DNA from: Spirochaetales bacterium
GTDB lineage: Bacteria > Spirochaetota > Spirochaetia > UBA9216
Reading direction: 5' to 3'
Assembly: GCA_016839055.1 (NCBI GenBank)
Contig: JAEKNX010000013.1
Span: 62,001 to 126,000 of the forward strand
Length of the DNA: 64,000 nucleotides
Shown here: positions 29,756 to 39,877 of the stretch, piece by piece
Position numbering within the stretch: position 1 is the stretch's first letter
Layout: each line of letters opens with the position of its first letter
Position numbers and translations under genes: made by a program
Notes under the pieces: model-generated
The model's database searches: none
What the model was told of the DNA's origin: nothing
The model's input: only the letters and a program-made list of their open reading frames with translations

Positions 29756-32029
29756 TCAGCGCCTCGCTCTGTCCATCAATACCGAGACGGGAACTATTGA
29801 ATATCCCTTCTCAATCAGGTTGTTAAGCAGAAGATCAAGATTGCTGTACAGCGCTCCCGTACCTTCTTTTCCCTCGCCAAGCCGGATGGGTATAATAGAC
29901 CCAGGCTTCTTATTGTCCATGATCTTCTCAACCATCTGAGGTACGGATAACCCGGCGCTGCCGTAGCTGTCCATACTCCAGGCCCACTCTAGTGGATCAA
30001 CATCCCTATTCACGTAGGTATAATTCATCTCTCCTGACGCTTTGATTATATCGGTATTCACGACATAATATGGAGCATGCCAGAAAAGAGCAAGCTCTTT
30101 CCCTGTTAAAGCATAGTAATCATCTTCGTTCCGCGCAAGTCCCCGCTTGATAAATTCTTTATCAAGACGATACCTTGAATCGGTCATATTAAAATATGCA
30201 TAGAACAATGACCCGACCTCATGACTGGACTTCGCAAGCTCCTGAACCGCTTCAGGATTACGCCGCATGAAATTGCCGTTAACAAAGAAAGTCGCATTAA
30301 TATCGTAATCATCGAGTATTTTCAACACCTCTGTCAATCCCTCGGCCGAATCAACCGCGTTAAAAACTAATGAAATTTCACGCCTTCTTATCCTCGAGCC
30401 ATGACTGAAGTTATTAAAATCAATCTCTTCCTCCCTGACTGGAAAGGGTTCATAACTTGTTTCCGGATAAGGAAAGAGTGATTCCGTTCCGAAGCTGTCA
30501 AGCTTCCGGAGCATTATCATATTAGCGTAGGGGCCGGATGAGAGTGTCTGTGTATATACGCGGTATTTATCAGAAATCGAGATCGGGGCGGCTTCATCTA
30601 TGCTGAACACACGCTTCCATGCAGATTCAGACGATTGAACAAAGAGGTTTCCGTTCGAAGACGCAAAAATTGAACCATCTCTGGTATAACCAGAGGAATC
30701 TGCCTGCGAGACAGCCAGTACTTCCGACTTTCTCGACACGATGTTGTAAACTTCAGTCGAATACCTGCCTGATATGAGCATCCTGTCATCCTCAATCCAG
30801 AATGCCTTAACAGGCTTGTCATATTTAAAAGTCTCCGAGGAACTCCAGGTGCGGTAATCCTTGATAATAATCTTATCCGAATATAGAACCGCTACTGAAT
30901 TATTATCCAACGACAGCTCAATATCGACAACATCTGACTCTGGAATCTTCTTAAACTCGAGAGGCTTATCGGTATAACGCAGATCGAAGCGAAACACCGA
31001 GGTTTTCTGAACACCGCCTTCGATGCTGTTTGCCAGTATTGTAACTATATCATTCGAAGGCCATATTACCTTCTTAAGCCTTGTATTCCGCGGAAGATAA
31101 AGATATGGCAGGGACACTACGTCACCGGTTGAGATATAGTCCGAATTCTTTAGAAAATAAAGGAATATGTTTGTTCCAGCCTTATTGAATATAATTTTCT
31201 CTCCGTCAGGCGAGACATAAAAACTGTCGAAGGCCGGATCAAAATCAAACGGAATCTTCCCGGCTATCTCACCGGTCTCCATGAGACCTCCATAGAGAGA
31301 TGTCGTAAATAATTGGGCGCTGATTATCTTATATATTATCGAATCCGACAGGTAAAACAGCTCTTTTCCCGCCGACCACCGGATATTGGAGATCAAGCCC
31401 TTACCTATTTTACGGAATTCTTCAGACAGAGTCTTTCCCTGATAGAACTGCTCGAGTGAGTAGTAATAAACATTGGCATCCTTACTGTAAACAAGGAAAT
31501 CAGAGTCAGGAGACCAGAGTACAACCTCATCGCTGTAGCTCAGGTCGAGGTTGGATGAGATTATTGTCTCCTTTCCGTTGTCTACATTGTAAAGAACAAG
31601 ATTACCCCAGCCGTAACTAACTGGTTCGAGGTAGGCGAGATACTTTCCGTCAGGTGACGGATGAGAGGGAAACATCTTTCCGGTTTTAATCTGCTTTCCA
31701 TCAATAAATCCGGGAAAGGAGGTCAGCATCCTAAGCCCGCTAAAATCATTCTCTGTCCTGAACAGCCCATACCTGTTACGAATTTGCAGCGTTCTTCCCG
31801 CGTCAAGCATGACAGCCTCTTCGGGAAATACGGTGAGCTGCTGGAGCTTCTTGTCTCCAAGGGTTACGTTAAACAGAGTCGAATAATGTCCGAAACCCGG
31901 AACTTCCATATCCGCTGAAAATAGAAGATTATCGTCCTGTCCGAATACAGGAGATTCAAAAACTACCTCCGCATAAGCAAAGGCCGCGGCTAATAATAAT
32001 AATATCAGCAATATAGGGATCTTTTTCAT
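29756..32029 (-). CDS. Exported beta-propeller protein with a degenerate polysaccharide deacetylase (NodB) domain
   Basis: A signal peptide (residues 1-20, ending AFAYA) is followed by a long region with TolB/WD40-like repeats (HPSPDGKYLAYL, LWSPDSDFLVYS, VSPDGEKIIF) up to about residue 500. The C-terminal part (about 555-757) resembles NodB deacetylases: INATFFVNGNFMRRNPEAV, SSHEVGSLF and a final SIVPVSVLM. The catalytic FDD, second zinc His and RxPY are altered (FNAVD, FYAYF, HAPYY), so deacetylase activity is doubtful. It may bind a wall polymer instead. Confidence 0.75.
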   Translation of the reverse strand: MKKIPILLILLLLAAAFAYAEVVFESPVFGQDDNLLFSADMEVPGFGHYSTLFNVTLGDKKLQQLTVFPEEAVMLDAGRTLQIRNRYGLFRTENDFSGLRMLTSFPGFIDGKQIKTGKMFPSHPSPDGKYLAYLEPVSYGWGNLVLYNVDNGKETIISSNLDLSYSDEVVLWSPDSDFLVYSKDANVYYYSLEQFYQGKTLSEEFRKIGKGLISNIRWSAGKELFYLSDSIIYKIISAQLFTTSLYGGLMETGEIAGKIPFDFDPAFDSFYVSPDGEKIIFNKAGTNIFLYFLKNSDYISTGDVVSLPYLYLPRNTRLKKVIWPSNDIVTILANSIEGGVQKTSVFRFDLRYTDKPLEFKKIPESDVVDIELSLDNNSVAVLYSDKIIIKDYRTWSSSETFKYDKPVKAFWIEDDRMLISGRYSTEVYNIVSRKSEVLAVSQADSSGYTRDGSIFASSNGNLFVQSSESAWKRVFSIDEAAPISISDKYRVYTQTLSSGPYANMIMLRKLDSFGTESLFPYPETSYEPFPVREEEIDFNNFSHGSRIRRREISLVFNAVDSAEGLTEVLKILDDYDINATFFVNGNFMRRNPEAVQELAKSSHEVGSLFYAYFNMTDSRYRLDKEFIKRGLARNEDDYYALTGKELALFWHAPYYVVNTDIIKASGEMNYTYVNRDVDPLEWAWSMDSYGSAGLSVPQMVEKIMDNKKPGSIIPIRLGEGKEGTGALYSNLDLLLNNLIEKGYSIVPVSVLMDRARR

Positions 32030-34465: not shown

Positions 34466-34494
34466 TTGACTACTATACCCCCCTATAGTATATT
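34466..34494 (+). promoter_or_regulatory. Copper-responsive promoter with CsoR operator filling the spacer
   Basis: TTGACT (34466-34471) and TATATT (34489-34494) are 17 bases apart. The palindrome TACTATACCCCCCTATAGTA (34471-34490) fills the spacer and touches both boxes. Six C flanked by inverted arms is the classic operator form of the CsoR/FrmR/RcnR family, and a CsoR gene is second in the operon. Confidence 0.9.
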
Positions 34495-34527: not shown

Positions 34528-34788
34528 ATGGGCTTATTCGGCTGTTTCTCATCGGGCGGCGTGCGTGGCGGATGGGGCATGAATAGTAATTTTCTTTCTA
34601 CAGGAGGCATTTTTATGATGATTGGATTTTTATTAATTGCAGGACTTATTGTCTACTTAATTGTAAAAAATTACAGAGGAGCAGAAAATACAGTTAATGA
34701 CCCCCTGGGGATATTAAAAGCAAGACTTGCAAAAGGGGAAATAACCGTAGAAGAATATAATTCACTGAAGAAGGAAATTCTCGGATGA
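34528..34788 (+). CDS. Small SHOCT-domain membrane protein, first gene of the copper operon
   Basis: An 86-aa protein with a Gly/Met-rich N-terminus, one membrane helix (about residues 29-49) and a C-terminal SHOCT motif (LGILKARLAKGEITVEEYNS). SHOCT modules are short oligomerisation motifs. Membrane-anchored SHOCT proteins are common next to copper exporters, but the role is not known. AAGGAGA precedes the ATG. It overlaps csoR by four bases. Confidence 0.85.
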   Translation: MGLFGCFSSGGVRGGWGMNSNFLSTGGIFMMIGFLLIAGLIVYLIVKNYRGAENTVNDPLGILKARLAKGEITVEEYNSLKKEILG

Positions 34789-35072
34789 CCGAAAAAAGGA
34801 TGGCTCACCACCCCTATAAAACAAAGGAAAAAATGATTACTCGCATGAAGAAGATTGAAGGTCAGATTCGAGGAATCTCCCGGATGATTGATGAAGACGT
34901 CTACTGTGATGACATCCTTCATCAGTTCATGAGTGTCGAGTCTGCAATAAACGGCGTTAAGAATACTCTTCTCGAAGCTCATATGAAAAGCTGTGTAATA
35001 AATCAGATTCAATCTGGAGATCTCGAGGTAGTCGATGAACTTCTCAAGACGATTGGCAAAATGACTAAATAG
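34785..35072 (+). CDS. csoR: Copper-sensing transcriptional repressor CsoR
   Basis: The 95-aa all-helical protein has the family start MITRMKKIEGQIRGISRMI. The Cu(I) ligands Cys-His-Cys are present: Cys in VYCDDIL (about residue 41), then His and Cys in EAHMKSCV (about 66 and 70). This pattern separates CsoR from FrmR and RcnR. It represses the operator at 34471-34490 and releases it on binding copper. It is embedded in the operon it controls. Confidence 0.93.
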   Translation: MTEKRMAHHPYKTKEKMITRMKKIEGQIRGISRMIDEDVYCDDILHQFMSVESAINGVKNTLLEAHMKSCVINQIQSGDLEVVDELLKTIGKMTK

Positions 35073-35091: not shown

Positions 35092-37557
35092 ATGGAAATA
35101 ATACAACTTGATATAGAGGGAATGACTTGCGCGTCCTGTGTGAGCCATGTTGAAAAAGGGATTTTAAAGTCAGACGGTATTGATATGGCCGCGGTTAACC
35201 TTGCAACAGAGAAGGCAACCGTCAGCTATGATCCCAAAGTCACTAATATTGAAAATATAATAAAGAGCGTCTCAAATGCAGGCTACAGCGCAGCTATCGC
35301 GGCGGAAGCGGAAGACAGTGACGCTGACAGGCGTAAGAAAAAAGAAATAAACAGGCTGAGAAATCACACGATAGTGTCGATCATTCTAAGCTCTCCCCTT
35401 ATGCTCGCGATGGCGGCAGGGCTCCTGAAGATCGATGCTCTGATGTTTCTGCATAATCCATTGCTACAGCTTATCCTTGCAACACCCATCCAGTTCTGGA
35501 TTGGAGCAAGGTACTATAGGGGAGCCTACAAAAGTATTAGAGCCGGAAGCCCGGGAATGGATGTACTTGTAGCCCTTGGCACCTCGGCGGCTTATTTTTA
35601 CAGCATATTTAACGGTTTCTTCGCCTCATCCTTCGGTATTGAAAGTGCGGGACTCTATTTCGAAGCTTCGGCTGTTATTATCACCCTCGTACTTCTCGGA
35701 AAATATCTTGAAACAAATGCGAGAGGGAAGACATCTGAGGCGATAAAGAAGCTCATGGGGCTTCAGCCCAAGAACGCGAAAGTCAAACGCGGCGCGGATT
35801 TTGAAGAAGTTCCGGTGAGCGACCTTGTCCCCGGAGACATTGTGCTGATTAAACCGGGAGAACGGATGCCCGTTGACGGGAAAATAGTCCAGGGAGCCAC
35901 GGCGGTTGATGAGAGCAGCATAACCGGTGAAAGCATGCCTATTGAAAAGACCGTAGGCGACAATGTAGTCAGCGGCACAATAAATACCTACGGCTCAATT
36001 GAGTTTATTGCTGAACATGTCGGCGAGGATTCGGTTCTTTCCCGGATAATCGCTATAGTTGAAGAAGCGCAGGGCTCTAAAGCCCCGATTCAGAAATTAG
36101 CCGATAAGGTCGCCGCGATCTTTGTTCCAGCAGTTCTTGGCATTGCTGTGGCGACATTCACTCTTTGGATGCTGCTGTCGGGAAATCTCTCCGACTCTCT
36201 TGTTTCGGCTGTTGCGGTTCTTGTTATTGCCTGTCCATGCGCCCTCGGCCTTGCGACTCCTACAGCAATCATGGTTGGAACGGGAATAGGCGCGACAAAC
36301 GGAATACTTATACGGAACGGCGAAGTGCTTCAGGCTGCCGGTAAAATTGATACAGTAATCCTGGACAAGACCGGAACCGTAACCCGCGGAAAACCGGAGC
36401 TCCAGGAGCTCATCCCCCTCCCCGCGGCCACATCAGCCGGCCTTAACAAGGAGAAGCTTCTTCATATTGCCGCATCACTCGAGAGCCTGTCTGAACACCC
36501 TCTTGCCTCGGCAATTGTAAGCGCGGCAGAAGATCAGAAAATCGGCCTTGTTAAACCGGAGGGCTTTAGCTCGGTTCCCGGAAACGGAATTACCGGAAGT
36601 ATAGATGGCAAGAAATACATCATCGGCAAGGTGAAATATCTTGAGTCCATGGGAATAAGCTCAAGCCCTTTCCGGGAGCAAATGAGTGAGCTTGAAAACC
36701 TTGGCTGGACCGTGATTATTCTTACGGATGAGGCCTCGCCTCTGGCCCTTCTCCCGGTTGCAGACAGCCTGAAAGAGCATTCGGCCGAAGGGGTAGCAGC
36801 TCTCATTGCCTCCGGAATTGACGTCTACATGCTCACCGGTGATAATAAAAGAACAGCCGAGGCGATTGCCCGCGAGGCGGGAATAAAAAATGTAATTGCC
36901 GAAGTCCTTCCGGAGGAAAAAGCCGCGGAAGTGACGCGGCTGAAAAAAGAAGGAAGAACTGTTGCCATGGCAGGCGACGGGGTCAATGACGCTCCGGCGC
37001 TCGCTACTGCCGATATCGGCTTTGCTATGGGCAGCGGATCAGACATAGCTATGGAATCATCAGACATAACCCTGATGAGGGGAGATCTCAGAGATATCTC
37101 AGCGGCCATCCGGCTTTCAAAAAAGACAATGACGAAGATAAAGCAAAATCTGTTCTGGGCTTTCATCTACAACGTAATAGGAATTCCTTTTGCGGCTCTT
37201 GGTTTTCTGAATCCTGTTATCGCAGGCGGTGCGATGGCTTTCAGTTCAGTCTCGGTAGTATCCAATTCACTAAGTTTGAAACGAATGAAATTAAAACCAG
37301 CTTATAGTCGTCCAGAACCTGCAAAAAATATTAAAAACAATAAGGAGAATAAGATGGCAACAGTAATCAAAGTAGAAGGCATGAGCTGTAATCACTGTAA
37401 AATGGCAGTTGAAAAGGCAGCAGGCTCTATTGCCTCAGTCATCTCAGCGGAAGTAAATCTTGACAAGGCAGAGCTGAGCGTTTCATTCAAGGAAGGGCAA
37501 GAGGCCCTGGATGATGTAAAAAAAGCCGTCATTGACGCAGGCTATACGCCGCTTTAA
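35092..37557 (+). CDS. copA: Copper-exporting P1B-type ATPase with an extra C-terminal CopZ-like domain
   Basis: An N-terminal heavy-metal-associated domain (GMTCASC, residues 10-16) is followed by about eight membrane helices with the metal site CPC (in VIACPCALGLATP, about 380), phosphorylation motif DKTGT, SEHPL (His of the N-domain), TGDN and AGDGVNDAPA. All catalytic residues are present, so it should pump Cu(I) out of the cytoplasm. After the last helix a hydrophilic linker (RPEPAKNIKNNKENK) leads into a second HMA domain with GMSCNHC. The linker DNA carries a ribosome binding site and ATG for that domain (see the next entry). Confidence 0.95.
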   Translation: MEIIQLDIEGMTCASCVSHVEKGILKSDGIDMAAVNLATEKATVSYDPKVTNIENIIKSVSNAGYSAAIAAEAEDSDADRRKKKEINRLRNHTIVSIILSSPLMLAMAAGLLKIDALMFLHNPLLQLILATPIQFWIGARYYRGAYKSIRAGSPGMDVLVALGTSAAYFYSIFNGFFASSFGIESAGLYFEASAVIITLVLLGKYLETNARGKTSEAIKKLMGLQPKNAKVKRGADFEEVPVSDLVPGDIVLIKPGERMPVDGKIVQGATAVDESSITGESMPIEKTVGDNVVSGTINTYGSIEFIAEHVGEDSVLSRIIAIVEEAQGSKAPIQKLADKVAAIFVPAVLGIAVATFTLWMLLSGNLSDSLVSAVAVLVIACPCALGLATPTAIMVGTGIGATNGILIRNGEVLQAAGKIDTVILDKTGTVTRGKPELQELIPLPAATSAGLNKEKLLHIAASLESLSEHPLASAIVSAAEDQKIGLVKPEGFSSVPGNGITGSIDGKKYIIGKVKYLESMGISSSPFREQMSELENLGWTVIILTDEASPLALLPVADSLKEHSAEGVAALIASGIDVYMLTGDNKRTAEAIAREAGIKNVIAEVLPEEKAAEVTRLKKEGRTVAMAGDGVNDAPALATADIGFAMGSGSDIAMESSDITLMRGDLRDISAAIRLSKKTMTKIKQNLFWAFIYNVIGIPFAALGFLNPVIAGGAMAFSSVSVVSNSLSLKRMKLKPAYSRPEPAKNIKNNKENKMATVIKVEGMSCNHCKMAVEKAAGSIASVISAEVNLDKAELSVSFKEGQEALDDVKKAVIDAGYTPL
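37354..37557 (+). CDS. copZ: CopZ-like copper chaperone from an internal in-frame start within copA
   Basis: The last 67 codons of copA form a complete HMA domain (VIKVEGMSCNHCKMAVEKA). The ATG at 37354 is preceded by AAGGAG at 37342-37347, six bases away, an ideal ribosome binding site in the middle of a coding region. The site makes sense if a free copper chaperone is made as well as the fused form. It may also be the fossil of two separate genes whose intervening stop was lost. Function: carry Cu(I) to CopA or CsoR. Confidence 0.7.
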   Translation: MATVIKVEGMSCNHCKMAVEKAAGSIASVISAEVNLDKAELSVSFKEGQEALDDVKKAVIDAGYTPL

Positions 37558-37577: not shown

Positions 37578-38954
37578 ATGAAACGAATTATTCTGATTTT
37601 AGTATTAATCATTTTAGGAGCTGACTGTACTTTCACAGAAGGGACGAGTGAAATAAAACCGGGCTCACCGCTTCCCATACCTCCGATTCTCAGCGGCATG
37701 AATCTTAATCTGCAAATTCAGGAGGGCAGCCTGGAGCTTCCCTTCGGAACCAGTGCAAGCTATGGTTTTAACGGTGACTATCTTGGACCGACAATAAGGG
37801 TTCGAAAAGACGACTACATCACGATGCAGATTGAAAACACCCTCAGTGAATCAACAACGGTTCACTGGCACGGCCTCCATGTTCCGGCTGAATTTGACGG
37901 CGGCCCGCATCAGATCATCAAAGCAGGACAGGTCTGGAAGCCGAAATTCCAGATAGCGCAGAACGCCGCTACCCTCTGGTACCATCCCCACCTCATGGGA
38001 AAAACAGCCGAACATGTTTACAGGGGACTTGCCGGAATGTTTATCATCGATGATGATTATTCCGACTCTCTGTCGCTGCCTGATGAATACGGAGTCAACG
38101 ATATACCTCTTATTATCCAGGACAGGGAATTTGACCGCAACGGCAGCTTTACATACGGCCCCTCACATGCGGACCTCATGCAAGGATATATTGGGAATGC
38201 GGTTCTGGTCAACGGAGCTTTTAAGCCTGAACTTGAATTGAGCAGAGGAACCTACAGGTTTAGAATACTCAATGGATCTAATTCTTCAATATACAGACTT
38301 ACTTTCTCTGACAGCCGGCAGTTTACCGTAATTGCCGGAGACGGAGGGTTCCTCCCGAAATCAGTCGGTGTCGAAAATTTGATACTATCGCCCGGTGAGC
38401 GTTTTGAAATCCTTATGGACTTTAAGACCAGTGAAATTATCAAGCTGAATCTTGAAATATACGGAAGTACCGGACATGAGATTATGACTATGAAGATCGT
38501 GGGAAATAACGGCCGATATTTTGAGCACCCGGCGAACTTCCTCTATGAGCCCGCGAACTTTGAATCATTAGACCTTAAAAAACGTTCATTTATAATGGAA
38601 ACCCGCGGTATGGGTATATTTACAATTAACGGCGCTCGAATGGACATGAATGTAATAAACTTCACGATGGATAAAAACAGCAATGAAATCTGGACAATAA
38701 GAAACCAGGGAATGGGCATGATGAACATCCCCCACTCCTTTCACGTACATGATACCCAGTTCAAAGTTTTATCATTTAACGGCCGGCTGCCTGGCCCGCT
38801 TTACAGCGGCCCGAAAGATACAATCCTGGTGATGCCGGGTGACGTGGCGGTTATCGGTGTAAGCTTCAAAGACTATACCGGAATCTACATGTATCATTGC
38901 CACCTTCTTGAACATGAGGACACCGGCATGATGGGTCAGTTTAAGATAGAGTAG
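37578..38954 (+). CDS. Multicopper oxidase (CueO/ferroxidase type), exported
   Basis: A hydrophobic signal region (residues 1-16) suggests export; the Cys after LGAD is a poor lipobox. All copper sites are present: HWHGLH and WYHPHL for the type 2/3 cluster, then HSFHVHD and YHCHLLEHEDTGMM at the C-terminus with the type 1 Cys, His and axial Met. Family members oxidise Cu(I) or Fe(II) in the periplasm using O2. It is the last gene of the copper operon (20 bases after copA), and its 3' end overlaps the converging FTR1 gene by 14 bases. Confidence 0.92.
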   Translation: MKRIILILVLIILGADCTFTEGTSEIKPGSPLPIPPILSGMNLNLQIQEGSLELPFGTSASYGFNGDYLGPTIRVRKDDYITMQIENTLSESTTVHWHGLHVPAEFDGGPHQIIKAGQVWKPKFQIAQNAATLWYHPHLMGKTAEHVYRGLAGMFIIDDDYSDSLSLPDEYGVNDIPLIIQDREFDRNGSFTYGPSHADLMQGYIGNAVLVNGAFKPELELSRGTYRFRILNGSNSSIYRLTFSDSRQFTVIAGDGGFLPKSVGVENLILSPGERFEILMDFKTSEIIKLNLEIYGSTGHEIMTMKIVGNNGRYFEHPANFLYEPANFESLDLKKRSFIMETRGMGIFTINGARMDMNVINFTMDKNSNEIWTIRNQGMGMMNIPHSFHVHDTQFKVLSFNGRLPGPLYSGPKDTILVMPGDVAVIGVSFKDYTGIYMYHCHLLEHEDTGMMGQFKIE

Positions 38955-39810
38955 CAGCCGATTTTGAGCTGTTCCGGGTCTGCCCGTCTGTGATTCTCGT
39001 CCATGTTATTAATGCAGCGGTTGTAAAACCGTACTGGGCTATGAACTGAATGACTTCAGGCTTGGAGTACCATCCGAAGAGGAAGTTCAGAGGAACTCCG
39101 AGCGCCCCGCTCTTGTGGTTGAATACAGTCTCTGAGAAATCAAACATCTTTGTCAGAACGAGGCTGTCGCCGCCGAGATAGCCGAGGGTCTTCAGTGCCG
39201 ACAGGAACTCATGGACCGAATACCCAAGCATATAGCCTGCCTGAAGGATGAGGTATGCCAGGGTAATGTTAAAAAACACCGAGAGCCTCACTTTAACAAG
39301 TGAGCGGTTAATCAGTACTGCGAGAACCGCAGCAATCAAAAGGCCCGATAGAGTCCCGAGAAGGTACGCCTGCTTGTCTGCCGCGGTGAACGTAAACAGG
39401 ACAATCTCGGCTCCCTCCCTTAGAACCATTACCATTGCAAGAACAAATAATCCCCTCGATGACATATTCCTGCTGACCTCGGTTTCGACGTCGCCGGTTA
39501 TTGTTCGGCCATGCTCAATCATCCAGTATATGAAGGTGGCAATAAAGATGAGGGCAACAAGAGAGGCTCCGGATTCCCAGAGTTTCGAGACTGCCCCGCC
39601 CTCCTTTCCCATCAGGGTCGAGATTCCCCAGAGAATCAATCCGAAAACGGCCGAGCCTCCAATTCCTGCCAGCAGACCGGAAGAAACATTCTTCTTCAAC
39701 TCCGGCCGGTTAATTTTACTCAAGTATTGTAGCATTATTCCAATAATAAGGAATGCTTCCATGCCCTCCCGAAAACCTACAATTAGCCCCGGAACAATTT
39801 GTGTAAACAT
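38941..39810 (-). CDS. FTR1 family high-affinity iron permease
   Basis: The membrane protein has seven or so helices and both REGxE iron-passage motifs: FREGMEAFL (about residue 14) and VLREGAEIVLF (about 145). FTR1-type permeases move iron supplied by a ferroxidase. The ATG at 39810 is chosen because AGAGGAG precedes it; an in-frame ATG at 39858 would lie inside the promoter. It converges on the multicopper oxidase gene, a plausible ferroxidase partner. Confidence 0.88.
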   Translation of the reverse strand: MFTQIVPGLIVGFREGMEAFLIIGIMLQYLSKINRPELKKNVSSGLLAGIGGSAVFGLILWGISTLMGKEGGAVSKLWESGASLVALIFIATFIYWMIEHGRTITGDVETEVSRNMSSRGLFVLAMVMVLREGAEIVLFTFTAADKQAYLLGTLSGLLIAAVLAVLINRSLVKVRLSVFFNITLAYLILQAGYMLGYSVHEFLSALKTLGYLGGDSLVLTKMFDFSETVFNHKSGALGVPLNFLFGWYSKPEVIQFIAQYGFTTAALITWTRITDGQTRNSSKSAATLS

Positions 39811-39835
39811 ATCATAGTCTCCTCTGTTAACTTTA

Positions 39836-39877
39836 TTAGCGTTAACTAACATTAACAAAACACTACAAGCTTGTCAA
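39836..39877 (-). promoter_or_regulatory. Promoter of the FTR1 gene with a DtxR-like operator
   Basis: On the minus strand TTGACA (39872-39877) and TAATGT (39849-39854) have a 17-base spacer. Just downstream lies TTAG-TTAACG-CTAA (39836-39849), the half-site spacing seen in DtxR/IdeR-type iron or manganese boxes, positioned to block transcription start. Confidence 0.6.

Follow-up and report, generated by a model that had tools for sequence, protein, structure and literature searches.

The copA gene of this Spirochaetales bacterium likely yields two products: a Cu+-ATPase that carries a copper chaperone domain at its C-terminus, and the same chaperone, CopZ, as a free protein translated from an internal start. 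Dual output by internal initiation is the best explanation of our observations, and we assign it a probability of about 0.88. In the window (the whole stretch of 64,000 nucleotides that was analyzed), the fused copA-copZ gene is found at 35092..37557 on the + strand and encodes a Cu+ P1B-ATPase of 821 amino acids with an HMA domain at both the N- and the C-terminus. Ribosomes starting at 35092 would synthesize the full Cu+ pump with CopZ tethered to its cytoplasmic tail, and other ribosomes would bind the AAGGAG motif at 37342 and start at the ATG at 37354, giving a free CopZ of 67 amino acids from the same mRNA and the same frame. The free form would gather cytosolic Cu+ and pass it to the pump, perhaps also to CsoR, and the tethered form would act as a built-in donor or sensor. 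Since both starts are carried by one mRNA, pump and chaperone would be co-induced by copper. Ribosomes translating the full-length frame could hinder binding at the internal site. We infer from the sequence that a 7-kDa protein would be made in the cell, and the same holds for the ratio of the two products and for the functions of free and tethered CopZ.

Reading the sequence confirmed the signal described in the original prediction, an AAGGAG located six bases 5' of an in-frame ATG (37354) and ahead of the C-terminal HMA domain. The local sequence reads AAT ATT AAA AAC AAT AAG GAG AAT AAG ATG GCA ACA, where the Shine-Dalgarno motif (37342-37347, + strand) is separated by AATAAG from the ATG (37354-37356). 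This ATG is in the frame of copA and the stop codon (37555-37557) is common to both open reading frames, such that the internal one (37354..37557, + strand) would encode a putative free CopZ of 67 aa and 7.01 kDa. This site is predicted to pair more tightly with the 16S tail (dG = -7.9 kcal/mol) than the site at copA's own start (-6.6). Predicted mRNA folding is at its weakest around the internal start (about -2 kcal/mol per 40 nt vs about -6 to -8 elsewhere), as would be typical for the beginning of a gene. The region directly 5' of 37354 showed no excess of promoters (7 candidates vs 6.8 expected from shuffled background). Of the 393 in-frame ATGs that lie inside long ORFs of the window, 7 (1.8%) have an equally strong upstream site. 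Taken alone, the site in this copA is suggestive and could be due to luck; its conservation in 116 of 123 fused relatives, which is presented below, places it far beyond chance. The internal frame presents the sequence properties of an in-frame gene within a gene: a shared frame and stop codon, and a conserved, well-spaced ribosome-binding site above background. Elsewhere in the window, at 31282 on the - strand, a Shine-Dalgarno motif with a dG of -10.2 precedes an in-frame ATG at about codon 249 of the ORF 29756-32029, which encodes a polysaccharide-deacetylase-domain protein; translation may start internally here too, or the gene start may have been misplaced.

The fused protein presents the features of Cu+-exporting P1B ATPases, namely E1-E2 ATPase and HAD domains, a CPC motif and an N-terminal HMA domain, and it scores 593 bits against the TIGR01511 model (cut-off: 397). 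The Pfam HMA model PF00403 matches both ends of the protein, with the ATPase core in between: the N-terminal HMA carries CASC and the C-terminal HMA carries CNHC (GMSCNHC). The MxCxHC motif is the signature of CopZ2-like chaperones such as Pseudomonas aeruginosa CopZ2 (PMC7558416), and the C-terminal piece of 67 aa presents both the size (~70 aa) and the motif (MSCNHC) of these chaperones (PF00403; E = 1.6e-11). Its top match among all models was NCBIfam CopZ NF033795, at 69.8 bits and under the cut-off of 91, and the nearest solved structure by sequence was the PDB CopZ 6ff2 (E = 6.5e-14). Judging from these matches, the piece is CopZ-like but outside the named NF033795 subfamily. Across the genes that we compared, a His before the second Cys (CxHC) was found in the C-terminal domains of 102 of 115 fused genes and in 33 of 40 separate CopZ proteins, and in none of 78 N-terminal HMA domains.

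The gene is located in a putative copper operon whose first gene encodes a small SHOCT-domain membrane protein (34528..34788, + strand; PF09851), followed by csoR (34785..35072, + strand), which encodes a CsoR/RcnR-type metal-sensing repressor (PF02583; E = 1.2e-28). A candidate sigma-70-like promoter, TTGACT-17-TATATT (34466..34494, + strand), was identified by consensus match only. It is overlapped by the palindrome TACTATA-CCCCCC-TATAGTA (34471-34490), which is probably a CsoR operator, given its operator-like shape and the csoR gene just 3' of it. Twenty bases 3' of copA and on the same strand starts the gene of a CueO-like multicopper oxidase (37578..38954, + strand; PF07732/PF07731/PF00394), whose top NCBIfam model is PRK10965 CueO, below the equivalog cut-off. 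An FTR1-type iron permease gene (38941-39858, - strand) converges on the oxidase gene and slightly overlaps its 3' end, an arrangement of copper oxidase and iron permease that resembles Fet3-Ftr1-like iron uptake.

We found no free copZ in the genome from which the window originates: its only HMA domains are the two of CopA and one in the C-terminal tail of a permease. This permease gene (locus L002, positions 1477-2805 on the - strand of contig C1) encodes a CGHC-type HMA tail, and an AGGAG is located 9 bases 5' of an in-frame GTG, which makes it a weaker candidate for an internal start.

We surveyed about 800 genomes and gathered 123 non-redundant fused copA-copZ genes, which are present in Spirochaetota, Bacillota and Deferribacterota according to the named records among these loci. 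The hypothesis that an assembly or sequencing error deleted a stop codon between two genes, which the existence of common separate copZ genes elsewhere would make conceivable, was rejected and has a negligible probability: the same fusion is found in the relatives G001, G006, G024, G031, G048 and G052 and in more than 100 other genomes. A Shine-Dalgarno motif with dG <= -5 kcal/mol was found before an in-frame ATG or GTG in 116 of the 123 fused genes, and 112 of them reached <= -7; these genes are mutually related and the counts are not independent. When limiting the set to representatives sharing less than 64% identity, the signal was observed in 36 of 39 genes (dG <= -5). The gap between motif and ATG is mostly 5-9 nt, and the ATG is 11 codons from the CxxC in 77 of 115 genes. 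In L171, a GTG replaces the ATG and the Shine-Dalgarno motif is kept.

These sites are found in a linker that varies widely between species. The charged linker that had been predicted ahead of the C-terminal domain is indeed present in the window (LKPAYSRPEPAKNIKNNKENK; 37291..37353, + strand), where it also holds the internal ribosome-binding site, but it is not a conserved feature of the protein: linkers are 3-159 codons long among fused genes and neither their length nor their sequence aligns. Their final codons almost always present a Shine-Dalgarno motif at the correct distance. This distribution bears on the possibility that free CopZ is released by protease cleavage of the linker, a charged and probably flexible segment that is long in many relatives. 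The unconserved protein sequence offers no common cleavage site and it is the nucleotide signal that is conserved, so that cleavage has only a very small probability of being the explanation, although it could add to initiation. The same spacing argues against an elongation pause, which would aid insertion of the eighth transmembrane helix or folding of the HMA domain with no initiation involved. Slower translation at SD-like sequences inside genes has been proposed, and the site is located 3' of the last transmembrane helix. However, its distance to the membrane varies between 3 and 159 codons, whereas the distances from motif to ATG (5-9 nt) and from ATG to domain are nearly fixed. Moreover, the ATG is kept even though the HMA fold needs none (an ATG is found in 4 of 17 control HMA domains), and L171 retains a GTG start with an intact motif. 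We therefore consider a pause to be an even slimmer prospect than cleavage.

We scored three types of controls in the same manner: separate copZ genes, second N-terminal HMA domains located inside the ORF, and in-frame ATGs of the ATPase core. Sites with dG <= -7 were found at 33 of 40 separate copZ starts, at none of 17 second N-terminal HMA domains and at 61 of 1617 in-frame ATGs in the ATPase cores of fused genes. Among a set of 115 fused genes, 100 sites reached this threshold, when synonymous recoding (same amino acids, with random codons drawn by each gene's own usage) predicts 33.9 and shuffling of the linker codons predicts 4.9. Lys-Glu pairs were encoded as AAGGAG in 36 of 52 cases near the ATG vs 41 of 345 in the core (P = 9e-18), and Gly-Asp/Glu-type pairs (G-x) contained GGAG in 26 of 34 cases near the ATG vs 153 of 638 in the core (P = 6e-10). 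The motif was observed in all three codon registers (68/33/5), where it encodes KE, KG(D/E) or KRS. Because synonymous codons are biased toward the Shine-Dalgarno motif and all registers are used, these sequence comparisons indicate that selection is acting on the RNA and not on the protein. None of the relatives from Bacteroidota that we fetched presented a C-terminal HMA domain; Bacteroidota hardly use Shine-Dalgarno motifs.

It could be argued that the signal is a relic: a merger by stop loss would have left an undecayed copZ start signal, and only the fusion protein would matter. The 40 relatives with separate copA and copZ genes in our set make it plausible that motif and ATG were inherited from a free gene, and a small number of fused genes no longer carry the signal. 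Yet the signal persists below 64% identity (36/39) and in non-aligning linkers of up to 159 codons, and synonymous codons are held to the motif (P = 9e-18) in all three registers. We consider a relic very unlikely, since a neutral six-base site would decay under such divergence. Overall, the original prediction that a free CopZ arises by internal initiation finds sequence-level support in the 116 of 123 conserved sites, the selection on nucleotides, the control linkers devoid of such sites and the CxHC domain.

Seven of the 123 fused genes are without a strong site. One of them, L005, presents no internal site at all, and no free copZ was found in its genome either, which suggests that a free chaperone is dispensable in some genomes and not needed everywhere. 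In the genome G736 (locus L247), the internal motif has been lost and a separate HMA ORF of 79 aa is found directly upstream of copA; this ORF is possibly a replacement for the internal product. The motif has also been lost in G339, yet no HMA ORF is found beside copA, and any link between loss of the motif and gain of a free copZ is anecdotal. By visual inspection of 40 fused genomes, 16 contained no chaperone-sized HMA ORF outside longer proteins and the others did, and a second check showed a similarly mixed pattern; in those with extra small HMA ORFs, the internal product need not be the sole chaperone.

We further analyzed the evolution of the fusion using a tree of the ATPase core. Fused genes are found at several places in this tree, and a single origin of the fusion was rejected (single clade; AU test, p-AU = 4e-44). 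The gene of the window is located apart from a large group comprising Clostridia, Mucispirillum and many spirochaetes, and L008, which branches near it, is without the C-terminal domain. The original prediction attributed the fusion to a stop codon lost between former copA and copZ genes, and it asked for relatives to be compared: separate pairs do exist (40 in our set), which makes this origin plausible. The event is undated, however, and splitting has occurred besides fusing, since L254, a split gene in which about 100 bases separate the stop codon from the copZ start, sits within a fused clade. In an unrooted count, several gains or several losses fit alike; with either, the start signal was kept in nearly every fused lineage. 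We lean toward the interpretation that this is a conserved device that evolved repeatedly in three phyla, in which tethered and free CopZ are both kept and the tethered form has a job of its own, and which would represent a second independent solution beside frameshifting. For example, the tethered CopZ might sense copper or donate it locally, with pump activity set by its exchange with free CopZ.

If this proposal is correct, the production of pump and chaperone from one gene has evolved through at least two translational mechanisms. Annotation of many spirochaetes and clostridia would then overlook a free CopZ, and some of these genomes, including that of the window, would only seem to be without a copper chaperone. 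It would also be a clear case of comparative genomics predicting internal initiation, one that could be tested at sites in many species. A further question that arises is the task of the tethered CopZ.

Our search of the open-access literature yielded no earlier description of a copA gene with an internal start; frameshifting in copA and in-frame internal starts in other genes are already known. A C-terminal HMA metal-binding domain is also present on the Cu+-ATPase CopA of Archaeoglobus fulgidus, where it has been regarded as part of the pump; we know of no report of an internal start in that gene. The copA gene of E. coli produces CopA(Z) by -1 frameshifting (Meydan 2017 and Drees 2017, as cited in PMC7558416 and PMC9548414). 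It is similar in that one copA gives a full Cu+-ATPase and a free HMA chaperone of ~70 aa, the latter being predicted here from sequence. It differs in that the E. coli chaperone is the first N-terminal domain, freed by a frameshift to a stop codon, whereas here it is the C-terminal domain, preceded by an in-frame internal Shine-Dalgarno motif and ATG. The original prediction drew the same contrast and it is apt. We found no suitable slippery site in this gene. Although the precedent of E. coli (PMC7558416, PMC9548414) invites the same explanation, programmed frameshifting is extremely unlikely here: 3' of the N-terminal HMA there is no slippery heptamer, and the features of a frameshifting cassette are missing; the sole heptamer nearby, TTTAAAG (35163), is within this domain, and a shift at this point would yield a product of ~30 aa; and the domain carries CASC, not the CxHC of chaperones.

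Dual output by internal initiation resembles the in-frame internal starts described for RpnS in rpn (PMC10327210), Cas11 in cas genes (PMC11899642) and two-polypeptide endolysins (PMC9430671), in which the C-terminal part is translated separately through an internal ribosome-binding site and start and is also contained in the long product. Those cases belong to other families; here the short product would be a free-standing form of a known soluble chaperone, which other bacteria encode in a gene of its own. The putative chaperone itself is similar to P. aeruginosa CopZ2 (PMC7558416) in its MSCNHC motif, size and HMA family, but differs in being encoded as the tail of copA. Finally, operons with separate copA and copZ genes are the typical arrangement (PMC7558416, PMC10187127). 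They encode the same two proteins with a similar Shine-Dalgarno motif and ATG before copZ (<= -7 in 33 of 40), whereas here no stop codon stands between the two parts and the pump also bears a tethered CopZ.
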